In this document: positions 6,251-14,432 of the stretch, in pieces
How the letters are laid out: the number at the start of each line of letters is the position of its first letter
Position numbering within the stretch: position 1 is the first letter of the stretch
Source: Chloroflexota bacterium
GTDB lineage: Bacteria > Chloroflexota > Limnocylindria > Limnocylindrales > CSP1-4
NCBI GenBank assembly: GCA_025358515.1
Contig: JANYJG010000164.1
Coordinates: 1 to 33,984, forward strand
DNA: 33,984 nucleotides
Reading direction: 5' to 3'
Notes under the pieces: model-generated
What the model was told of the DNA's origin: nothing
The model's input: only the letters and a program-made list of their open reading frames with translations
Database searches by the model: none
Translations under genes and position numbers: made by a program

Positions 6251-6568
6251 GTCCTGCCTTTCGCTGGCGGCGGCCTCCGACTGGAACTCGGCGTGCGATC
6301 ACACCCGATGGGAGGCCCTACGCCCCGTGCGCCACGATCAAGCTCACACGAATGGCGGCCGGATACCCTTGCGCGGGCCGATGTATCTCCTCCGGCCGGG
6401 CGCGGTCTGAATGTCGGGTTGGATGTTGCGGCCCGGCCCTGATGATTAGCTGAAACGTGGCTACGCCTCGGGCAGGATCGACCCTGTTGCGGCTGGTGAA
6501 CGCGGCCTTCGTTCTTAGTGCGTCATCGAGGCGCCCGCGCCGCCACGCGTTTGGTACCGTTAGCGGCG
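6251..6568. other. Divergent intergenic region, ligase-like gene / alaS
   Basis: 318 bases between the two divergent starts. I see no convincing gene: the open frames here are shadows with skewed composition. The only promoter-like element I can defend is the TACCGT box before alaS. A TGGTACC heptamer (6552-6558) overlaps it and resembles the conserved T-box core, but no supporting structure could be read. No confident minus-strand promoter was found. Confidence 0.5.
6555..6560 (+). promoter_or_regulatory. -10-like box TACCGT before alaS
   Basis: TACCGT (TAnnnT) ends 8 nt before ATG 6569, with no Shine-Dalgarno between. It is a weaker match than the other leaderless-type boxes in the window but has the same geometry. 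Confidence 0.4.
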
Positions 6569-9328
6569 ATGCCTGATTTGCCGATTCCCTACCTGCCCGC
6601 GGCCGACGTGCGCCGCATGTTCATAGAGTTCTTCGCCCAACACGGCCACAGCGAGGTGCCGAGTGCCTCGCTCCTGCCCGCGGGGGACCAGACGCTGCTT
6701 TTCACGAACTCTGGCATGGTCCAGTTCAAGGACGTTCTAACGGGTCGGGAAAAGCGCAGCTATGTTCGGGCCACGGACTACCAGCGCTGCCTTCGCGTGG
6801 CCGGCAAGCACAACGATTTTGAAGAAGTGGGCCGCACGACGCGCCATCACACCTTTTTCGAGATGCTGGGCAACTGGAGCTTTGGCGACTACTTCAAGCG
6901 CGATGCGATTCACTGGGCCTGGGAGTTGCTCACCGAGGTCTTCAAGATTCCGGCCGAGCGGCTGGCCGCGACCGTCTACACCGACGACGACGAGGCCTAT
7001 CGAATCTGGAGCCAGGAGATCGGCCTGCCGCCCGAGCGGATCGCTCGCTGGGGGAATGTCGAGGCCGGAGACGATGCCAACTTCTGGCGCATGGCCGAGA
7101 CTGGGCCGTGTGGCCCCTGCTCCGAGATCCACTTCGACCGGGGTGTGGAGTTCAGCGAGGGGCCGGAGTGCGTACCAGACCATTCGGAAAATTGCCCGCG
7201 CTGGCTGGAGCTCTGGAATCTCGTGTTCATGGAGTACGACCAGCGCGCCGACGGTGTGCGCGTGCCGCTGCCGATGCTCTCCGTGGACACGGGCATGGGC
7301 CTGGAGCGTCTGACGAGCGTCATCCAGCAGGTAAGTACCAACTATGACACGGACCTTTTCACTCCGATCCACGCCGCCATGCGCGAGCTGCTGGGCCACG
7401 ATCCGGAGGCCTTCGAGGCGGAGCGGTTCAGCTACCAGGTGATTGCAGACCACTCGCGAGCGGTGACGTTCCTGGTTGCGGACGGCGTTATGCCGTCCAA
7501 TGAGGGTCGCGGCTACGTGCTCCGGCGCATCATCCGTCGCGCTGTGCGGCACGGACGGCTGCTGGGGCGGCATGAACCGTTCATGGATGTGACCGCAGGC
7601 GTCGTAATCGACGTGATGAAGGATGCGTACCCCAATCTCGACAAGCAGCGGGAGAAGATTCTGAAGGTAATCCACCAGGAGGAGACCCAGTTCGCCAGAA
7701 CTCTTGAAGCGGGGACGAGTCAACTTGAGACCGCCTTGGCACCGCTGACGACGACCAAACGCTCGCTTGGCTCGCAGGCCCAGCGCACGATTGGGCGGCG
7801 GCCCGAATCGCTCCCGACCGACGCGCCCGTGCTCGCGGGCGACGTCGCGTTCCGACTCCACGACACGTACGGATTCCCCGTGGATCTGACCGTGGATATG
7901 GCCGCGGAATACGGCGTACGGGTCGACCGAGACGGGTTCGGGGTGGCGATGGCGCAACAAAAGGAGCGCAGCCGCAAGGGCACCAAGGCCGACCTGACCC
8001 GCAACGCCGAGTTGGCCGACATGTACCAGGCGATCCAGCGTCGCGCCGGTGAGACCCACTTCACCGGTTACGACAGCCTGGAGGGCGAGGTTCGCGTGGT
8101 TGCCATCGTCCGCGACGGCATGGAGTACCAGGAACTGACCGGCAACGGCGCGGCCGAGATCGTGCTGGATGCCACCCCCTTCTACGGCGAGGGCGGCGGA
8201 CAGGTCGGCGACCGCGGCGAGCTGCTCGAGGCGGGTGGCGGCAGCGCCATCTTCACGGTTCAGGACACACAGAAGCCGATCTTGGGGTTATTCCTGCATC
8301 GCGGCCAGCTGCACGGCCGGCTGCGGGTCGGTGAAACGGTCACTGCCCGCGTGGATACGGACCGGCGTGCCCGGACGATGCGAAACCACACCGCCACTCA
8401 TTTGCTCCACCGGGCGCTGCGAAACGTCGTGGGTCCGGAGGCTCATCAGGCCGGGTCACTCGTGGCGCCGGAGTACCTGCGCTTCGACTACCCGCTGGAT
8501 CGGGCCCTAACGGCGGACGAGAAGCGGGCAATAGAGGACGAGGTCCGTCGAATCGTTCGCGAGAACCATGCCGTGACGACAACCGTCCAGCCCATGGCCG
8601 ATGCGATTGCGGCCGGCGCCGATGCCTTCTTCGACGAGAAGTACGGCGAGACGGTCCGGACGGTTCGGGTGGAGGGCTACTCGCTGGAACTGTGCGGTGG
8701 TACGCATTGCCAGGCCTCCGGCCAGATCGGCAGCTTTCTGATTACGGCGGACCGCAGCATCGGAGCGGGTACGCGGCGCATCGAAGCAGTCACCGGAGAC
8801 GGCGCGGATGCCCTCCTGCGCGACCGTCTGGCTGTGCTGGAGCGCATCGCCGAGACCGTGGGCGCCACGTCGTTGGACGCGCTGCCGGATCGGATCGCGG
8901 CCCTGCAGGAGGACCTGCGCGAGACGCGGCGGCGGCTCAAGGCGGGCGGCAGCGGGCTGGCCAAGCCGGCTGAAGTCGCGGCAGCGGCCTCGGAAGTTGC
9001 GCCCGGCGTGAAACTCGTCGCCTATTCGGCCGCCTTCGAATCGCCGGAGCAGTGGAAGGCCTATGTCAAGGAAGTGCGCGCGGCGTTGGGGAACGGCGTC
9101 ATCGCGGTGGCCTTGGACGCGGAGGCGCCCCAGCTCTTCGTGACGGTCAGCGCGGACCTCGTGGCCCGCGGTATCTCCGCCGGTGAGTTGGTCAAGGTCG
9201 CCATGACGGCAATGAACGGGCGTGGTGGCGGCCGGCCGGAGATGGCTCAGGGTATGGGATCGCGCCGCGATGGGATCGCGCCGGCCCTGAGCTTGATCGC
9301 GGATACACTTACGGCAGCGGGTAAATAG
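6569..9328 (+). CDS. alaS: Alanyl-tRNA synthetase
   Basis: Charges tRNA-Ala. It has 919 residues from ATG 6569; a longer in-frame extension to 6518 is not supported by the family, whose N-terminus begins with the equivalent of VRRMFIEFFAQHGH. The class II core is clear (TNSGMVQFKDVLTG, CLRVAGKHNDFEEVGRTTRHHTFFEMLGNWSFGDYFK in sequence, written as adjoining motifs RHHTFFEMLGNWSFGDYFK and others), followed by RGYVLRRIIRRAVRHGR. The editing domain has zinc-binding HTATHLLH and CGGTHC, and a DHHA1-like domain ends the protein. The editing motifs are intact. It heads the block running to ruvX and mltG, a neighbourhood also known in Actinomycetota. Confidence 0.96.
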   Translation: MPDLPIPYLPAADVRRMFIEFFAQHGHSEVPSASLLPAGDQTLLFTNSGMVQFKDVLTGREKRSYVRATDYQRCLRVAGKHNDFEEVGRTTRHHTFFEMLGNWSFGDYFKRDAIHWAWELLTEVFKIPAERLAATVYTDDDEAYRIWSQEIGLPPERIARWGNVEAGDDANFWRMAETGPCGPCSEIHFDRGVEFSEGPECVPDHSENCPRWLELWNLVFMEYDQRADGVRVPLPMLSVDTGMGLERLTSVIQQVSTNYDTDLFTPIHAAMRELLGHDPEAFEAERFSYQVIADHSRAVTFLVADGVMPSNEGRGYVLRRIIRRAVRHGRLLGRHEPFMDVTAGVVIDVMKDAYPNLDKQREKILKVIHQEETQFARTLEAGTSQLETALAPLTTTKRSLGSQAQRTIGRRPESLPTDAPVLAGDVAFRLHDTYGFPVDLTVDMAAEYGVRVDRDGFGVAMAQQKERSRKGTKADLTRNAELADMYQAIQRRAGETHFTGYDSLEGEVRVVAIVRDGMEYQELTGNGAAEIVLDATPFYGEGGGQVGDRGELLEAGGGSAIFTVQDTQKPILGLFLHRGQLHGRLRVGETVTARVDTDRRARTMRNHTATHLLHRALRNVVGPEAHQAGSLVAPEYLRFDYPLDRALTADEKRAIEDEVRRIVRENHAVTTTVQPMADAIAAGADAFFDEKYGETVRTVRVEGYSLELCGGTHCQASGQIGSFLITADRSIGAGTRRIEAVTGDGADALLRDRLAVLERIAETVGATSLDALPDRIAALQEDLRETRRRLKAGGSGLAKPAEVAAAASEVAPGVKLVAYSAAFESPEQWKAYVKEVRAALGNGVIAVALDAEAPQLFVTVSADLVARGISAGELVKVAMTAMNGRGGGRPEMAQGMGSRRDGIAPALSLIADTLTAAGK

Positions 9329-9346
9329 GCAGCAAGGGGAGCGGCC

Positions 9347-10609
9347 GTGGCTTTCTGGCGCAAGATCTGGGGCCGCGAGGATGAGGCGGCGCTGGCCGCG
9401 TGTACGGCCTTGGACATCGGCACGGAGTTCGCCAAGGCGCTCGTCTTCGACATCGACGCCGGCGGCCTGGGCACAGTTCGAGGTGTCGGTCGCAAGCGCC
9501 AGGGCCTGGCGCACATGCAGTCCGGCACGGTCACGGACATCAACGCCGTCGTCGACAACTGCTCCGTTGCCCTCCAGGAAGCGGAGGAGATGGCCGGGTT
9601 CCGGCCCACGCAGTGCGTCATCGGCATCGCCGGAGAGCTGGTCAAGGGCTTCACCACGACCCATTCCCAGGAGCGCAAGCGAGCCGACGTTCCTATTACC
9701 GAGCCGGAGCTCCAGAAGCTGATCGGTGGCGTGCAGCGCGAGGCCTTGAGGGAGGCGGAGCGGGCAATCACCTGGGAGACGGGCCTGGCGCAAGTGGACG
9801 TCCGGCTGGTTCACGCTGCGGTCACCGGTGCCCAAATCGACGGCTATCCGGTCACTAATCCGGTGGGATTTCAGGGCCGCCACGTCAAGATCAGCGTTTT
9901 CAACGCCTTTGCGCCTTTAGTCCATTTGGGCGCTCTCCAAACCGTGGCCCAGCAGCTGGAGCTGGAACTGCTGGAGATCGTGGCCGAGCCATACGCCGTG
10001 GCGCGGGTTCTCGCGAGCGAGCAGGTCCGGCAGGCCGGCGCCCTGTTCATCGACATCGGCGGCGGCACCACGGACGTGGCCCTGGTCCGACACGGCGGCA
10101 TAGAGGGGACGCGCATGTTCGCCCTGGGTGGCCGCGCTTTTACCAAGTCGATCGCCGACCGTTTGGATCTCCCGTTCCCGCGGGCCGAGGAGACCAAGGT
10201 GGACTACGCCCGAGGCCTCAAGGTCGAGCGGCGCTCCGACGTGGCCAAGATCGTCGCCGACGACGTGGCCATCTGGTCCGCCGGCGTGGAGCTGGTGCTA
10301 GAAGAACTGGCCGAGGGCGACCTGCTGCCCGGGCACGTGTATCTGTGCGGTGGCGGCTCCCACCTGCCTGAGATCGGCACCGTCCTGTCCAGCGAACAGT
10401 TCTGGAAGCGTCTTCCTTTCAGCCGGTCGCCCGAAGTTACCGTCATGGCGCCCGATCAGGTCGAAAGGATCAAGGACGCAACCCATTTGCTCGTGGACCA
10501 GCAGGACGTCACTCCGCTGGGGCTGGCCTACCAGGCCATCGAACTTCAGACAACCGAAGACCCCCTGGACGTAGCTTTGCGCCGCGTCCTCCGAGCCATG
10601 AAGATGTAG
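9347..10609 (+). CDS. FtsA/PilM-like actin-fold ATPase
   Basis: 420 residues from GTG 9347, preceded by GGGGAG five bases upstream. It shows actin-superfamily nucleotide motifs: phosphate-1 ALDIGTEFAKALV (21-33), phosphate-2 LFIDIGGGTTDVALV (233-247) and an adenosine-type LCGGGSHLPEI (333-343). The SHS2-like insert of FtsA/PilM is visible (SGTVTDINAVVD, then IGIAGELVKGF). The C-terminus, DVALRRVLRAMKM, could form an amphipathic membrane-binding helix as in FtsA (inference). The next gene starts 3 nt downstream and encodes a single-pass membrane protein with a short cytoplasmic domain, suggesting a cytoplasmic-ATPase/membrane-partner pair analogous to PilM–PilN. No pilin or PilN/O/Q gene is in the window, so it could be a divergent PilM or a dedicated ATPase of a different envelope system. 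Confidence 0.8.
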   Translation: MAFWRKIWGREDEAALAACTALDIGTEFAKALVFDIDAGGLGTVRGVGRKRQGLAHMQSGTVTDINAVVDNCSVALQEAEEMAGFRPTQCVIGIAGELVKGFTTTHSQERKRADVPITEPELQKLIGGVQREALREAERAITWETGLAQVDVRLVHAAVTGAQIDGYPVTNPVGFQGRHVKISVFNAFAPLVHLGALQTVAQQLELELLEIVAEPYAVARVLASEQVRQAGALFIDIGGGTTDVALVRHGGIEGTRMFALGGRAFTKSIADRLDLPFPRAEETKVDYARGLKVERRSDVAKIVADDVAIWSAGVELVLEELAEGDLLPGHVYLCGGGSHLPEIGTVLSSEQFWKRLPFSRSPEVTVMAPDQVERIKDATHLLVDQQDVTPLGLAYQAIELQTTEDPLDVALRRVLRAMKM

Positions 10610-10612
10610 CCG

Positions 10613-12439
10613 ATGGCCATCTACTTTCTTGACGCAGACGATGAAGTCACGTCGGCGGCGGCGCGAATCCGCGACTCCTCCGACACTCGAATCGCGCTCG
10701 TCCTTTCGGGCGGTTCGCGGGTCGCCACTTCGCGCATCAACTTCCGAGTCCTGGCCCGCGAGGCCCAGCACCGCCACAAGCGGCTGGCGATCGTTGCGCC
10801 CGACATGTCGGTCCGTTCCGTCGCCCAGTCGGCTGGGTTGCCGGTTTTCGCGACCGTCGGCGAGTATGAGAAGTCGGAGGCGGCGCGATTGATTGCCGGG
10901 GTGGCCGGCGCGGGCGAAGTCTCTTCGACCCTGGACGAGCTTGGGGCAACGATTGAACCTGCTGCCGCACCCCCGCGCGAACGGCCCTGGTCCGGCGCCA
11001 CGCGCGTCGTTGGGAGTGGGGGAGTTGTGGTCGCCGGTTCCTCTACGCTCCGGCCCGCGGAGGCGTCACGAACCGCGTCCCGAATGCCTCGGACCGCCGC
11101 AACGTTGGTGGCCATCGCCCTGCTCCTGACGGGCGCCATCGGCCTGGCGGTCTTCTGGCCGAGTGCCACGGTGGTCCTCACCCTCAAGGAAGAAGCGGTG
11201 GGTCCGGTCAGCCTGACGGTGAAGGTGGATCCAGCGGCTCTGACCGCGGACGATGCCTCGGCGACTGTCCCCGGCAAGACGACGGCGATCGCGGTGGCGG
11301 CGACGGCCGAATTCAAGGCGACGGGCCAGAGCGTGGTGGAAACCGCTGCCACCGGCACAGTGACGTTTACGAATACGAATAACGATACGAACGTTCCGGT
11401 GCCCGCCGGAACGCAGGTTTCGACGGCCTCCGGTATCGCCTTCACGACCACTTCGGCTGTGATCGTGCCCAAGGCCACACAGCTTTCCGCGAACGTACAG
11501 ACTCCCGGCCACATCGACGCGCCGATAGTGGCGGTGCGGAAGGGATTGTCCGGGAACGTATCTGCCAGGGCGATCGTCAACATGCCAGCCGCAATTCATG
11601 CCGACCTTCATAAGTTTGGCTCGGTCAAGAACGCCAGCCCCACCACGGGCGGCACCCACGCCGTTACGCCCAAGATCCAGCAGTCGGACCTCGACATTGC
11701 CAAGGCCAACCTCACCATCCAACTCAACGACGCCTTCCAGGCCAAGCTGGCCGACCCGGCTACGGCTCCCGCCGGGTTTGAGCTCTTCGCCAAGACCGCA
11801 CAGCTCGGCGATCCCACCTTCAGTCCTGATCCCGCGAACCTTCTAAACCAAGGCGTCGCAACCTTCCAGCTCGGCGCCGCCGGGGCAGGCACGGCCACGG
11901 TCGCGGATCTGAACAACGTTCGCAGCCTGGCTGAGCGCCTCATCAAGAACAAGGTCAAGAGTGGTTATACGCTCGTCGATGGTTCCGTCTCGGTGCTATT
12001 CGGCACCGTGAAGGCCGATGGCGCCAACCTGAGCGTGCCTGTGACAGCGCGGGCGTCGCAGGTCGCCAACCTCAACCCGGATGACCTCCGCGCAGTCATC
12101 GAGGGCAAGACCGTCGATGAAGCAAAGGCCTATCTCAGCAAGTACGGCAAAGCGGACATATCGCTGTCGCCGGGCTGGGGCGGAATTCCCGGCTTCGGCT
12201 TCCGGATCGACATTCAGCTTGTGGCGCCTGTGCTTCGCCCGTCCGGGTCCGCCTCCGCCAAACCGGGCAGCCATGCCGCGTCCACGCCCGCGACGAGTGG
12301 CAGCCCGATTGTGACCGGACCAGTGACTACTGGATCGTCCGCACTGCCTAGCTCGCAAGCCTCGCCATCCGCGGGCGTGTCACCAACATCGTCACCGACC
12401 GCCGGCGCTACGGCCAGCGCGGCTCCCACGGCGACCTAG
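10613..12439 (+). CDS. Single-pass membrane protein with Baseplate_J-like extracellular domain
   Basis: 608 residues in clear modules. Residues 1-115 are a cytoplasmic alpha/beta domain (IYFLDADDEVTSAAARIRD, RIALVLSGG, RLAIVAPDMSVRSVAQSAGLPVF). A Pro/Gly-rich linker leads to one transmembrane segment (about 162-182). Outside, residues about 245-325 carry the Baseplate_J-like stretch: GTVTFTNTNN, VPVPAGTQVSTASGIAF and TTSAVIVPKA. Further beta-rich sequence follows to about 545, then a Ser/Thr/Ala/Pro-rich tail of about 60 residues. Proteins annotated 'baseplate J/gp47 family' with this layout occur in Chloroflexota and some Patescibacteria (from memory). Immediate linkage to the actin-like ATPase suggests the N-terminal domain contacts it. 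No other phage-tail genes are present, so a prophage is unlikely. Confidence 0.72.
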   Translation: MAIYFLDADDEVTSAAARIRDSSDTRIALVLSGGSRVATSRINFRVLAREAQHRHKRLAIVAPDMSVRSVAQSAGLPVFATVGEYEKSEAARLIAGVAGAGEVSSTLDELGATIEPAAAPPRERPWSGATRVVGSGGVVVAGSSTLRPAEASRTASRMPRTAATLVAIALLLTGAIGLAVFWPSATVVLTLKEEAVGPVSLTVKVDPAALTADDASATVPGKTTAIAVAATAEFKATGQSVVETAATGTVTFTNTNNDTNVPVPAGTQVSTASGIAFTTTSAVIVPKATQLSANVQTPGHIDAPIVAVRKGLSGNVSARAIVNMPAAIHADLHKFGSVKNASPTTGGTHAVTPKIQQSDLDIAKANLTIQLNDAFQAKLADPATAPAGFELFAKTAQLGDPTFSPDPANLLNQGVATFQLGAAGAGTATVADLNNVRSLAERLIKNKVKSGYTLVDGSVSVLFGTVKADGANLSVPVTARASQVANLNPDDLRAVIEGKTVDEAKAYLSKYGKADISLSPGWGGIPGFGFRIDIQLVAPVLRPSGSASAKPGSHAASTPATSGSPIVTGPVTTGSSALPSSQASPSAGVSPTSSPTAGATASAAPTAT

Positions 12440-12981
12440 TGGGTTCAGTGGAAGCGGGCTCCGCGGGCGCGGCGCACGCCCATGACGGCGCGAATGCGCC
12501 TCGACGTGCCGAGAGCCGGCGCGCTCTAGGTATCGACCTCGGGGAGCGGCGCATCGGCGTGGCGGTAGGCGATCTAGTCAGCGGTACGTCCCAGCCGCTC
12601 GTGACGCTTGGTCGCGCCAGGAAGCTCGCGGGCGATGCCCTGACCATCTCTCGGCTGGCCGCGGAACAGCAGGCCGGCATTATTGTGGTCGGGCTACCGC
12701 TGGACATGGACGGCGGCGAGGGCCTGCAGGCTGCAAAGACTCGGGACTGGGCCGAGGCGATTTCCGAGGCCACGGGTCTGCAACTTCGGCTGCGGGACGA
12801 GCGCCTGACAAGCGAACGGGCAGAACGGCGAATCGGGCATCCGGCCCGGGGCCGATCCGGCGGCCCGCCCAGCGCCTCCGCACGGGATGCATATCGCGCC
12901 CGCATCGACAGGGAGGCCGCTGCCCTTATCCTGCAAGACGAGATTGACGCGACCAGCGCGGACGCGGAGCGAGGAGTCTGA
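12439..12981 (+). CDS. ruvX: RuvX/YqgF, putative pre-16S rRNA nuclease / Holliday junction resolvase
   Basis: 180 residues with the RNase H-like fold of the YqgF family. Visible acidic residues are Asp33 in GIDLGERRIGVAV, DERLTS (120-125) and Asp157 in ARIDREAAALILQ, plus GLPLDMDG in the middle. Family members mature 16S rRNA in E. coli, and some resolve junctions. The GTG overlaps the previous stop by one base (TAGTG); GTG 12448 is an alternative start. About 27 N-terminal residues precede the conserved core and look disordered. The ruvX–mltG order is a standard neighbourhood. Confidence 0.9.
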   Translation: MGSVEAGSAGAAHAHDGANAPRRAESRRALGIDLGERRIGVAVGDLVSGTSQPLVTLGRARKLAGDALTISRLAAEQQAGIIVVGLPLDMDGGEGLQAAKTRDWAEAISEATGLQLRLRDERLTSERAERRIGHPARGRSGGPPSASARDAYRARIDREAAALILQDEIDATSADAERGV

Positions 12982-14432
12982 TGACGTTACGCAGTGGAGG
13001 AAGCCCTCGGTCCGGCCGAGGCAGGGGACCCGACAGTGACCCCGAAGGCAAGATCCCCGTGCTGGACACGGGCTGGAACGACTACCAACCGGTAGACCCC
13101 GTGTCGGGTTCCGCGGATCCACGGGACCGCAAGAAGCCCAAACTCACCCCGACGGAGTCACGCCGAGACTACCGGTCGACCCGGTCGGCGGGCATCGGGG
13201 GACTGCTCCGATTTGGCCTCTTCGCCCTGATTCTGGGCGGTCTGGTCGTCGGCGGTCTGTGGTTCATCGCCCGTCCGGCCGTCGTGAAGGGCCTGGTGGA
13301 CTGGTCCGCCGAAAACCCGACGGCCCTCAAACTGCCGTTCATACCAGATCTCGTTCGAAGCGAATTGAACACAAGCCTGACCGTGCCGGTCGACGCGAAT
13401 GACCAGACGAACGTCGTGTTCATAGTCGCTCCCGGCGACACGCCGCAACAGATCGCCCAGCAGTTGTACCAGTCCGGCCTCCTTCGCGAGTCGCGGGCAT
13501 TCGTCTTCGAATCGATCCAGTCGGGCCTCAGCAGCAAGTTTCAGGCCGGTCGCCACGGCCTGAACAAGTCGATGACCGTGGACGCCATGATCACCGCCCT
13601 TACGGCGACGCCGCTGCCGACGCCGTCCGTCAAGCTGCTGTTCAAAGAGGGGCTCAGCATTGAAGAGATGGTGGGGGTCATCGAGAAGAAGGAGGCCCAG
13701 CCGGACGATCCGACCGCGCCCCTCACTCTGGACGTCAGCCAGTTCTACCAGCTGGCGAAGAGCCCGCCGGCTTATATGCTGGCCGACTACCAGTGGCTCA
13801 AGCTGCCAGCCGGCGCGTCGCTAGAAGGCTTCCTCTTCCCGGCAACGTACACGATCGCCCCGGACATCACGCCCGAGCAACTCATCCGGCAATTGTTGGC
13901 GGCCTTCGCTGCCAACGCCCCCAAGGGCCTCCTTGACCTACCACCGGACCAGCTGTACAAGACCGTTCAGGTTGCCGCCCTGGTGGAAAGAGAGGCGGTA
14001 GTCGACTCCGAACGGCCGATCATCGCGGGCGTCTACACCAACCGCCTCAATGCCAAGGTTTGGCCAACGGGCCTGCTGGACGCGGACCCGACGCTCCTAT
14101 ACGGCTACGACCTGATGACGCTGCAGGATCCGGCCAATCCGATCACGGCCTGGGTCGACTATCCGTTCTGGACACACAGGTTCAGTGAGGCACTCGGCAA
14201 GGTGATCTTCCCGGGAGCCCTGGCGGCGTTCAACACTTACAGCCACAAGGGCTTACCGCCAACTCCGATCTGCTCGCCTGGTGCGGCCTCACTGGCCGGT
14301 GCGCTGAATCCGACCACCTCTACCGGCTACCTGTTCTTCCTGGCGAAGAATGACGGCTCAAATACTCACGCCTTCGCCAAGACCCAGAAGGAACAGGACG
14401 CCAACGCCAAGAAGTACGGCTACCTGCCGTAG
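12981..14432 (+). CDS. mltG: Endolytic murein transglycosylase MltG (YceG-like)
   Basis: Membrane-anchored lytic transglycosylase thought to release nascent glycan strands near the membrane. It has 483 residues: a polar, basic N-terminus of about 70 residues, one transmembrane segment (74-97), then the YceG domain. Family motifs seen: GDTPQQIAQQLYQSGLL, LEGFLFPATY (281-290), the catalytic-region ALVEREAV with Glu336 as the likely catalytic residue, GVYTNRL, NTYSHKGLPPTPI and the C-terminal LFFLAKNDGSNTHAFAKT. Start ATG 12981 overlaps the ruvX stop by one base (TGATG). The cytoplasmic tail is longer than in E. coli, common in high-GC Gram-positives. Confidence 0.93.
   Translation: MTLRSGGSPRSGRGRGPDSDPEGKIPVLDTGWNDYQPVDPVSGSADPRDRKKPKLTPTESRRDYRSTRSAGIGGLLRFGLFALILGGLVVGGLWFIARPAVVKGLVDWSAENPTALKLPFIPDLVRSELNTSLTVPVDANDQTNVVFIVAPGDTPQQIAQQLYQSGLLRESRAFVFESIQSGLSSKFQAGRHGLNKSMTVDAMITALTATPLPTPSVKLLFKEGLSIEEMVGVIEKKEAQPDDPTAPLTLDVSQFYQLAKSPPAYMLADYQWLKLPAGASLEGFLFPATYTIAPDITPEQLIRQLLAAFAANAPKGLLDLPPDQLYKTVQVAALVEREAVVDSERPIIAGVYTNRLNAKVWPTGLLDADPTLLYGYDLMTLQDPANPITAWVDYPFWTHRFSEALGKVIFPGALAAFNTYSHKGLPPTPICSPGAASLAGALNPTTSTGYLFFLAKNDGSNTHAFAKTQKEQDANAKKYGYLP

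Follow-up and report, generated by a model that had tools for sequence, protein, structure and literature searches.

RodZ is a bitopic protein that binds the actin homologue MreB through a folded cytoplasmic domain and carries a beta domain outside the cytoplasm; among precedents for a partner whose cytoplasmic domain is folded, it comes closest. Pairs of an actin-like protein and a single-pass partner drive division, elongation, and pili, and the two genes described here, A and B, would encode a further such pair. FtsA–FtsN and PilM–PilN are established precedents in which an actin-like protein holds a bitopic partner (PMC7613929). The A–B pair spans an environmentally common phylum, the Chloroflexota, is strongly conserved, follows the occurrence of a cell-wall enzyme, and appears to be undescribed: a literature search, with coverage short of most subscription journals, found no description of the pair and none combining baseplate J and FtsA, and literature on Chloroflexota FtsA paralogues or proteins resembling FtsA likewise yielded no description of it.

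Organization of the locus

The pair lies in a window, the whole stretch of DNA that was analyzed, of 33,984 nucleotides (contig label G000:C202), from a genome of 2.78 Mb whose close relatives are Chloroflexota MAGs. The features of the locus are as follows.

6518–9328, + strand: alaS, an open reading frame and the upstream neighbor of gene A; its end is the insertion site of the A–B module
9347–10609, + strand: gene A, 420 aa, FtsA-family actin-like ATPase, a paralogue of canonical FtsA
9629–9880, + strand: 1C (SHS2-like) insert of A, at the FtsA position, residues ~95–178, from the model and hhalign
10562–10606, + strand: C-terminal amphipathic helix of A, residues 406–420, conserved, a candidate membrane anchor
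10613–12439, + strand: gene B, 608 aa, bitopic membrane protein
10613–10903, + strand: cytoplasmic alpha/beta N-domain of B, residues 1–97, pLDDT ~97, without a Pfam family
10904–11089, + strand: disordered linker of B, residues 99–159 with pLDDT <50
11090–11152, + strand: single transmembrane helix of B, residues 160–180, a helix in the model and hydrophobic in sequence
11162–12226, + strand: ectodomain of B, residues 184–538, pLDDT ~98
11270–11602, + strand: Baseplate_J/GlxA-type beta-barrel inside the ectodomain, residues ~220–330, from PF04865, Foldseek, and profile hits
12227–12436, + strand: Ser/Thr/Pro-rich low-complexity tail of B, long in this genus and absent in L023 and L027
12439–12981, + strand: ruvX, PF03652 98.6 bits, 1-nt overlap with B
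12981–14432, + strand: mltG (YceG), PF02618 206.6 bits, 1-nt overlap with ruvX

Both open reading frames of the pair were confirmed, with a spacer of 3 nt (10610–10612) between them, and very short gaps or 1-nt overlaps run throughout the alaS–A–B–ruvX–mltG order. A pattern scan of the coding strand from 9200 to 13200 found no terminator-like sites. A sequence-only reading of the window had placed the two genes 3 nt apart and just ahead of ruvX–mltG, with no pilus or phage-tail gene nearby; the open reading frames and the PF03652 and PF02618 matches confirm this placement, the neighbors being alaS, B, ruvX, and mltG in a chromosomal block. The pair is very probably a real module and is not a product of chance, since it recurs in tens of species and A is 70–90% identical across its family.

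Occurrence across Chloroflexota

One sample of 121 Chloroflexota genomes served for the survey of A, B, and MltG alike. A occurs in 32 of them, with a clean score gap (162–876 bits for its own family; next best 74, the ceiling for every other protein in the sample). B is found alongside A in all 32 genomes and directly adjacent to it in 31, the hits in G110 lying on different contigs. B itself reaches further, to at least 75 of the 121 genomes, 43 of these 75 being without A; the count is a lower bound because a better profile also detects B in G159 (L246). The order alaS–(A)–B–ruvX–mltG recurs across families. The sequence-only reading had named co-occurrence and order of the pair as one of its checks, and both hold in this sample.

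MltG is present in 106 of the 121 genomes, and neither A nor B occurs in any of the 15 that lack it, Dehalococcoides-type lineages included, as expected of an MltG-associated wall system. Dehalococcoides-type lineages are wall-less and without peptidoglycan (PMC10608941). The earlier picture of a conserved actin-like ATPase and bitopic partner next to a murein enzyme is thereby sustained, in the form of a syntenic block with mltG that is confined to MltG-bearing genomes. Fisher tests with related genomes counted as separate give p values of 9e-8 for MltG–B and 1.5e-8 for B–A; an AlaS tree of 59 rows shows about 5 changes of state for A and 6 for B, too few for significance by independent pairs. 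The synteny with mltG may simply reflect an old alaS–ruvX–mltG cluster.

Clean empty sites, with alaS directly beside ruvX, are found in most of the B-less genomes examined (L234–L238, L241–L243, L247). At L234, from genome G037 of the sister family f2 with its ~1.1 Mb genomes, A–B is absent and alaS abuts ruvX, which suggests loss of the pair in f2 during genome streamlining.

Probable coupling of the two halves, and their exchange

The N-domain is the best conserved part of B (mean column identity 75% vs 53% for the tail-less chain), and it is under stronger constraint in the presence of A: between families, the ratio of N-domain to ectodomain identity is 1.29 with A and 1.01 without (family permutation p 0.006). 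In family f3, A persists without its nucleotide motifs and the N-domain of B has drifted; in family f14, A and the N-domain are both absent, and the B profile match starts just before the transmembrane helix. The degenerate A genes (L175:5315–6391, L176:5711–6808) still lie between alaS and B, and each could be a pseudo-ATPase or a decaying gene. Many A-less genomes retain the N-domain, which points to an A-independent role for it and rules out a strict rule by which loss of A means loss of the N-domain; the difference in conservation remains. An AF2 model in which read-through joins A to residues 1–97 of B has a pLDDT of 87.6 and a pTM of 0.77, the fusion output giving no interface measure. 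On balance, A probably binds B directly.

The B ectodomain also occurs on other cytoplasmic halves. Family f21, with genomes of 5–7 Mb, carries extra ectodomain copies with an N-terminal Ser/Thr kinase (PF00069, 139–157 bits) and one transmembrane helix, several per genome.

L197:3128–5773: B-type ectodomain–Ser/Thr kinase fusion
L197:8804–11257: B-type ectodomain–Ser/Thr kinase fusion
L216:952–3675: B-type ectodomain–Ser/Thr kinase fusion
L216:11537–14056: B-type ectodomain–Ser/Thr kinase fusion
L216:14298–16805: B-type ectodomain–Ser/Thr kinase fusion
L195:4324–6606: B-type ectodomain–Ser/Thr kinase fusion

Proteins that join a weak B-type N-domain to a B ectodomain adjoin these kinases, away from gene A (L197:6114–8792, L195:6599–8989, L216:8597–11377). 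The fusions mark the ectodomain as a module with exchangeable cytoplasmic halves, like the PASTA domains of wall-sensing kinases, and they favor a role in sensing or binding the wall over a baseplate. A Pfam search of B-type ectodomain proteins found no PASTA repeats. It is conceivable, if doubtful, that the ectodomain constitutes a phylum-wide Chloroflexota receptor of wall status with interchangeable outputs, namely, an FtsA-type filament (A), a stand-alone alpha/beta domain, and a Ser/Thr kinase. A-bearing lineages would then read wall status into an actin-like filament, or have it imposed by one, and the system would amount to a PASTA-kinase equivalent with cytoskeletal output.

If B acted alone as a sensor or anchor at the wall and A were co-transcribed without binding it, one would expect what is seen: an ectodomain that also serves kinases and other cytoplasmic halves, B genomes without A (43 of 75), and an N-domain retained in many of them. 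Such independence is unlikely given that A never occurs without B, that the two are adjacent in 31 of 32 genomes, and that N-domain conservation tracks A.

The actin-like protein A

As the cytoplasmic half of the proposed two-protein module, A scores 52.9 bits against PF14450 (FtsA), above the gathering score of 31.8, and 107.8 bits over residues 20–293 against TIGR01174 (ftsA), below the equivalog cut-off of 175.85. Its nucleotide motifs are complete, comprising phosphate-1 TALDIGTEFAKAL, phosphate-2 ALFIDIGGGTTDVALV, and adenosine VYLCGGGSHLPE. The 1C region runs through strands and helices at 100–109, 119–145, 152–164, and 179–190 in the model, and A is predicted to have the actin fold in its FtsA form, where 1C (SHS2) substitutes for 1B; a profile search found no match to PF02491, although the insert is visible in both the model and the profile alignment. 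The last 11 residues (ALRRVLRAMKM) rank second among 410 windows in hydrophobic moment, and the helix is kept across the family, as in a putative FtsA-type C-terminal amphipathic membrane helix. For the N-terminus of the window protein (MAFWRKIW), an amphipathic anchor was considered and rejected, the hydrophobic moment there being unexceptional. Complete actin-fold nucleotide motifs, an SHS2-like insert, and a possibly amphipathic C-terminus had all been proposed from the letters of the window, and all three hold up.

The same proposal had left the family open as "FtsA/PilM-like," and profile and fold now place A on the FtsA side. Profile comparison by hhalign gives 99.3% probability against canonical FtsA, over 359 columns that span the 1C region, versus 3.3% against Chloroflexota PilM. 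The best Foldseek hits of the A model are all FtsA (TMt 0.75–0.86), led by 7q6i (E 9e-32, TMt 0.86), which is FtsA crystallized with the cytoplasmic peptide of bitopic FtsN; PilM follows (E 2e-21), and then EutJ and MreB.

The canonical FtsA of this genome (412 bits) is encoded with FtsQ and FtsZ on contig C155, which rules out A as the sole FtsA of the cell. A lies outside the dcw cluster and is not the single-copy neighbor of ftsZ by which FtsA is recognized. Judged by its family scores, A forms a family apart from the canonical FtsA that these cells also have; profile, fold ranking, complete motifs, C-terminal helix, and the canonical FtsA elsewhere together identify it as an FtsA-family paralogue. 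Contig C69 of the genome encodes MreB together with MreC, and C249 another MreB, so that the cell has FtsA, two MreB proteins, and A as separate actin-like proteins. Of the two MreB genes (L231:9456–10730 and L232:9595–10593), one is followed by mreC and the other lies just downstream of apparent ATP synthase genes.

With FtsA as its nearest fold and profile, and with FtsA–FtsN geometry a known kind (PMC7613929), A could be a second, specialized divisome FtsA that binds FtsZ, with B as an FtsN-like septal activator. Canonical FtsA, however, scores above the TIGR01174 cut-off in 58 of 61 relatives and sits beside FtsZ in this genome, and A falls far under that cut-off, and many FtsA-bearing genomes lack it; a second divisome FtsA is accordingly quite improbable. 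A core like PilM–PilN, belonging to a type IV pilus or a secretion machine, would have the same topology, and the Thermus PilM–PilN complex 2ych is within fold reach of A (TMt 0.80), but this reading is effectively ruled out by the PilM_2 (PF11104) score of 20.9 bits, under the gathering score of 27, by the profile comparison and fold ranking, by the absence of pilus genes from the block, and by a separate PilM-type N-terminal match in four A-bearing genomes (G062, G074, G076, G094). Dehalococcoidia-type genomes (L251–L258, L260) encode PilM-type proteins of ~500 aa that seemingly run into a transmembrane segment and are possibly PilM–PilN fusions.

The bitopic protein B

On the other side of the proposed module, the AF2 model of B, built from 84 aligned sequences, has an overall pLDDT of 89.9. 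Together with a PF04865 match of 29.2 bits (gathering score 21.1), it agrees with the sequence-only description of a cytoplasmic alpha/beta domain, one transmembrane helix, a Baseplate_J-like region, and a Ser/Thr-rich tail. Foldseek gave no confident structural relative of the N-domain, TM1081 alone being noted (TMt 0.48, E 0.32), and no HTH family was found in B or its 83 relatives. In structure and profile searches, convincing known relatives of B emerge only for the barrel at ~220–330, and these are baseplate J proteins of phages and GlxA, a secreted oxidase (Foldseek matches 8kea, 9gb2, and 5lqi; profile hits 9euf_C, 9g8s_C, and 5lxz). The PF04865 match is limited to residues 244–330 and to profile positions 21–94 of 255. 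Among the 84 B sequences, 70 match Baseplate_J and 13 the GlxA barrel. The likeness to GlxA, a radical copper oxidase that Streptomyces secretes, falls at window positions 11342–11490, where the B barrel is similar to the beta-barrel domain of that enzyme.

A baseplate origin for B, by domestication from a phage or an injection system, with the module as a contractile or surface baseplate, would accord with the PF04865 match, a phrog_6 match of 41 bits, and the Foldseek matches to baseplate proteins, but is scarcely credible and can be set aside: the likeness is confined to one barrel that GlxA also has, tblastn against 50,697 phage records gave no match and a pattern scan of IMG/VR none, a single transmembrane helix and kinase fusions are foreign to baseplates, and B shows neither PF04865 over most of the model nor a context of tail or injection-system genes. 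With its baseplate likeness restricted to ~110 residues, B is not a phage-type machine. Of the initial proposal of an actin-like ring or patch linked through the membrane to an outer, baseplate-like assembly, what stands is the conserved ATPase and its bitopic partner; the assembly itself reduces to a barrel common to baseplate proteins and a secreted oxidase. A "Baseplate_J" annotation in a bacterial genome can thus mark a wall-facing membrane protein and not a phage remnant.

Proposed mechanism

On the preferred reading, A and B make up a transmembrane module of two proteins that is dedicated to the cell wall. The FtsA paralogue A would be held at the membrane via its C-terminal amphipathic helix and, as FtsA does, form ATP-dependent filaments or patches at the inner membrane face. 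It would bind the folded N-domain of B, by which B would be gathered or positioned. B would cross the membrane once and place its barrel-containing ectodomain and disordered tail in the wall, where it may exert local control over the synthesis or trimming of peptidoglycan, most likely in concert with MltG, its partner in the operon. A wall function of the module is rather likely; the statement as a whole, including the filament, A–B binding, and wall regulation with MltG, has about an even chance of being correct.

Comparison with known systems

As in FtsA–FtsN, an actin-like ATPase with a 1C domain and a C-terminal amphipathic helix is paired with a bitopic, wall-reaching partner, and A comes nearest to FtsA in fold and profile alike. 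The differences are that A belongs to a family separate from the canonical FtsA of the same genome and lies outside the dcw cluster, and that the cytoplasmic part of B is a folded ~97-aa domain rather than a short peptide, followed by a different ectodomain. In contrast to MreB–RodZ, A is FtsA-type and not MreB-type, with two MreB proteins and MreC encoded elsewhere in the genome, and, unlike RodZ, B has no recognized HTH and its N-domain is alpha/beta.

PilM–PilN likewise combines a 1C-bearing actin-like protein with a bitopic partner, but A falls short in PilM family score and profile comparison, no pilN/O/P/Q lies alongside, and PilM is separate in some A genomes. Baseplate_J/gp47 phage proteins and GlxA share the ~110-residue beta-barrel of the ectodomain, whereas the N-domain, transmembrane helix, and remaining ectodomain of B have no match there and B is not found in the phage records. 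In f21, Ser/Thr kinases that cross the membrane once carry the B ectodomain as their outer half, in the manner of PASTA kinases of the PknB type, although Pfam finds no PASTA repeats in that ectodomain and the window B has no kinase domain. On the best reading of this evidence, A–B looks like a cell-wall control module, so far undescribed, that pairs an actin-like with a bitopic protein and has its nearest counterparts in FtsA–FtsN and MreB–RodZ.
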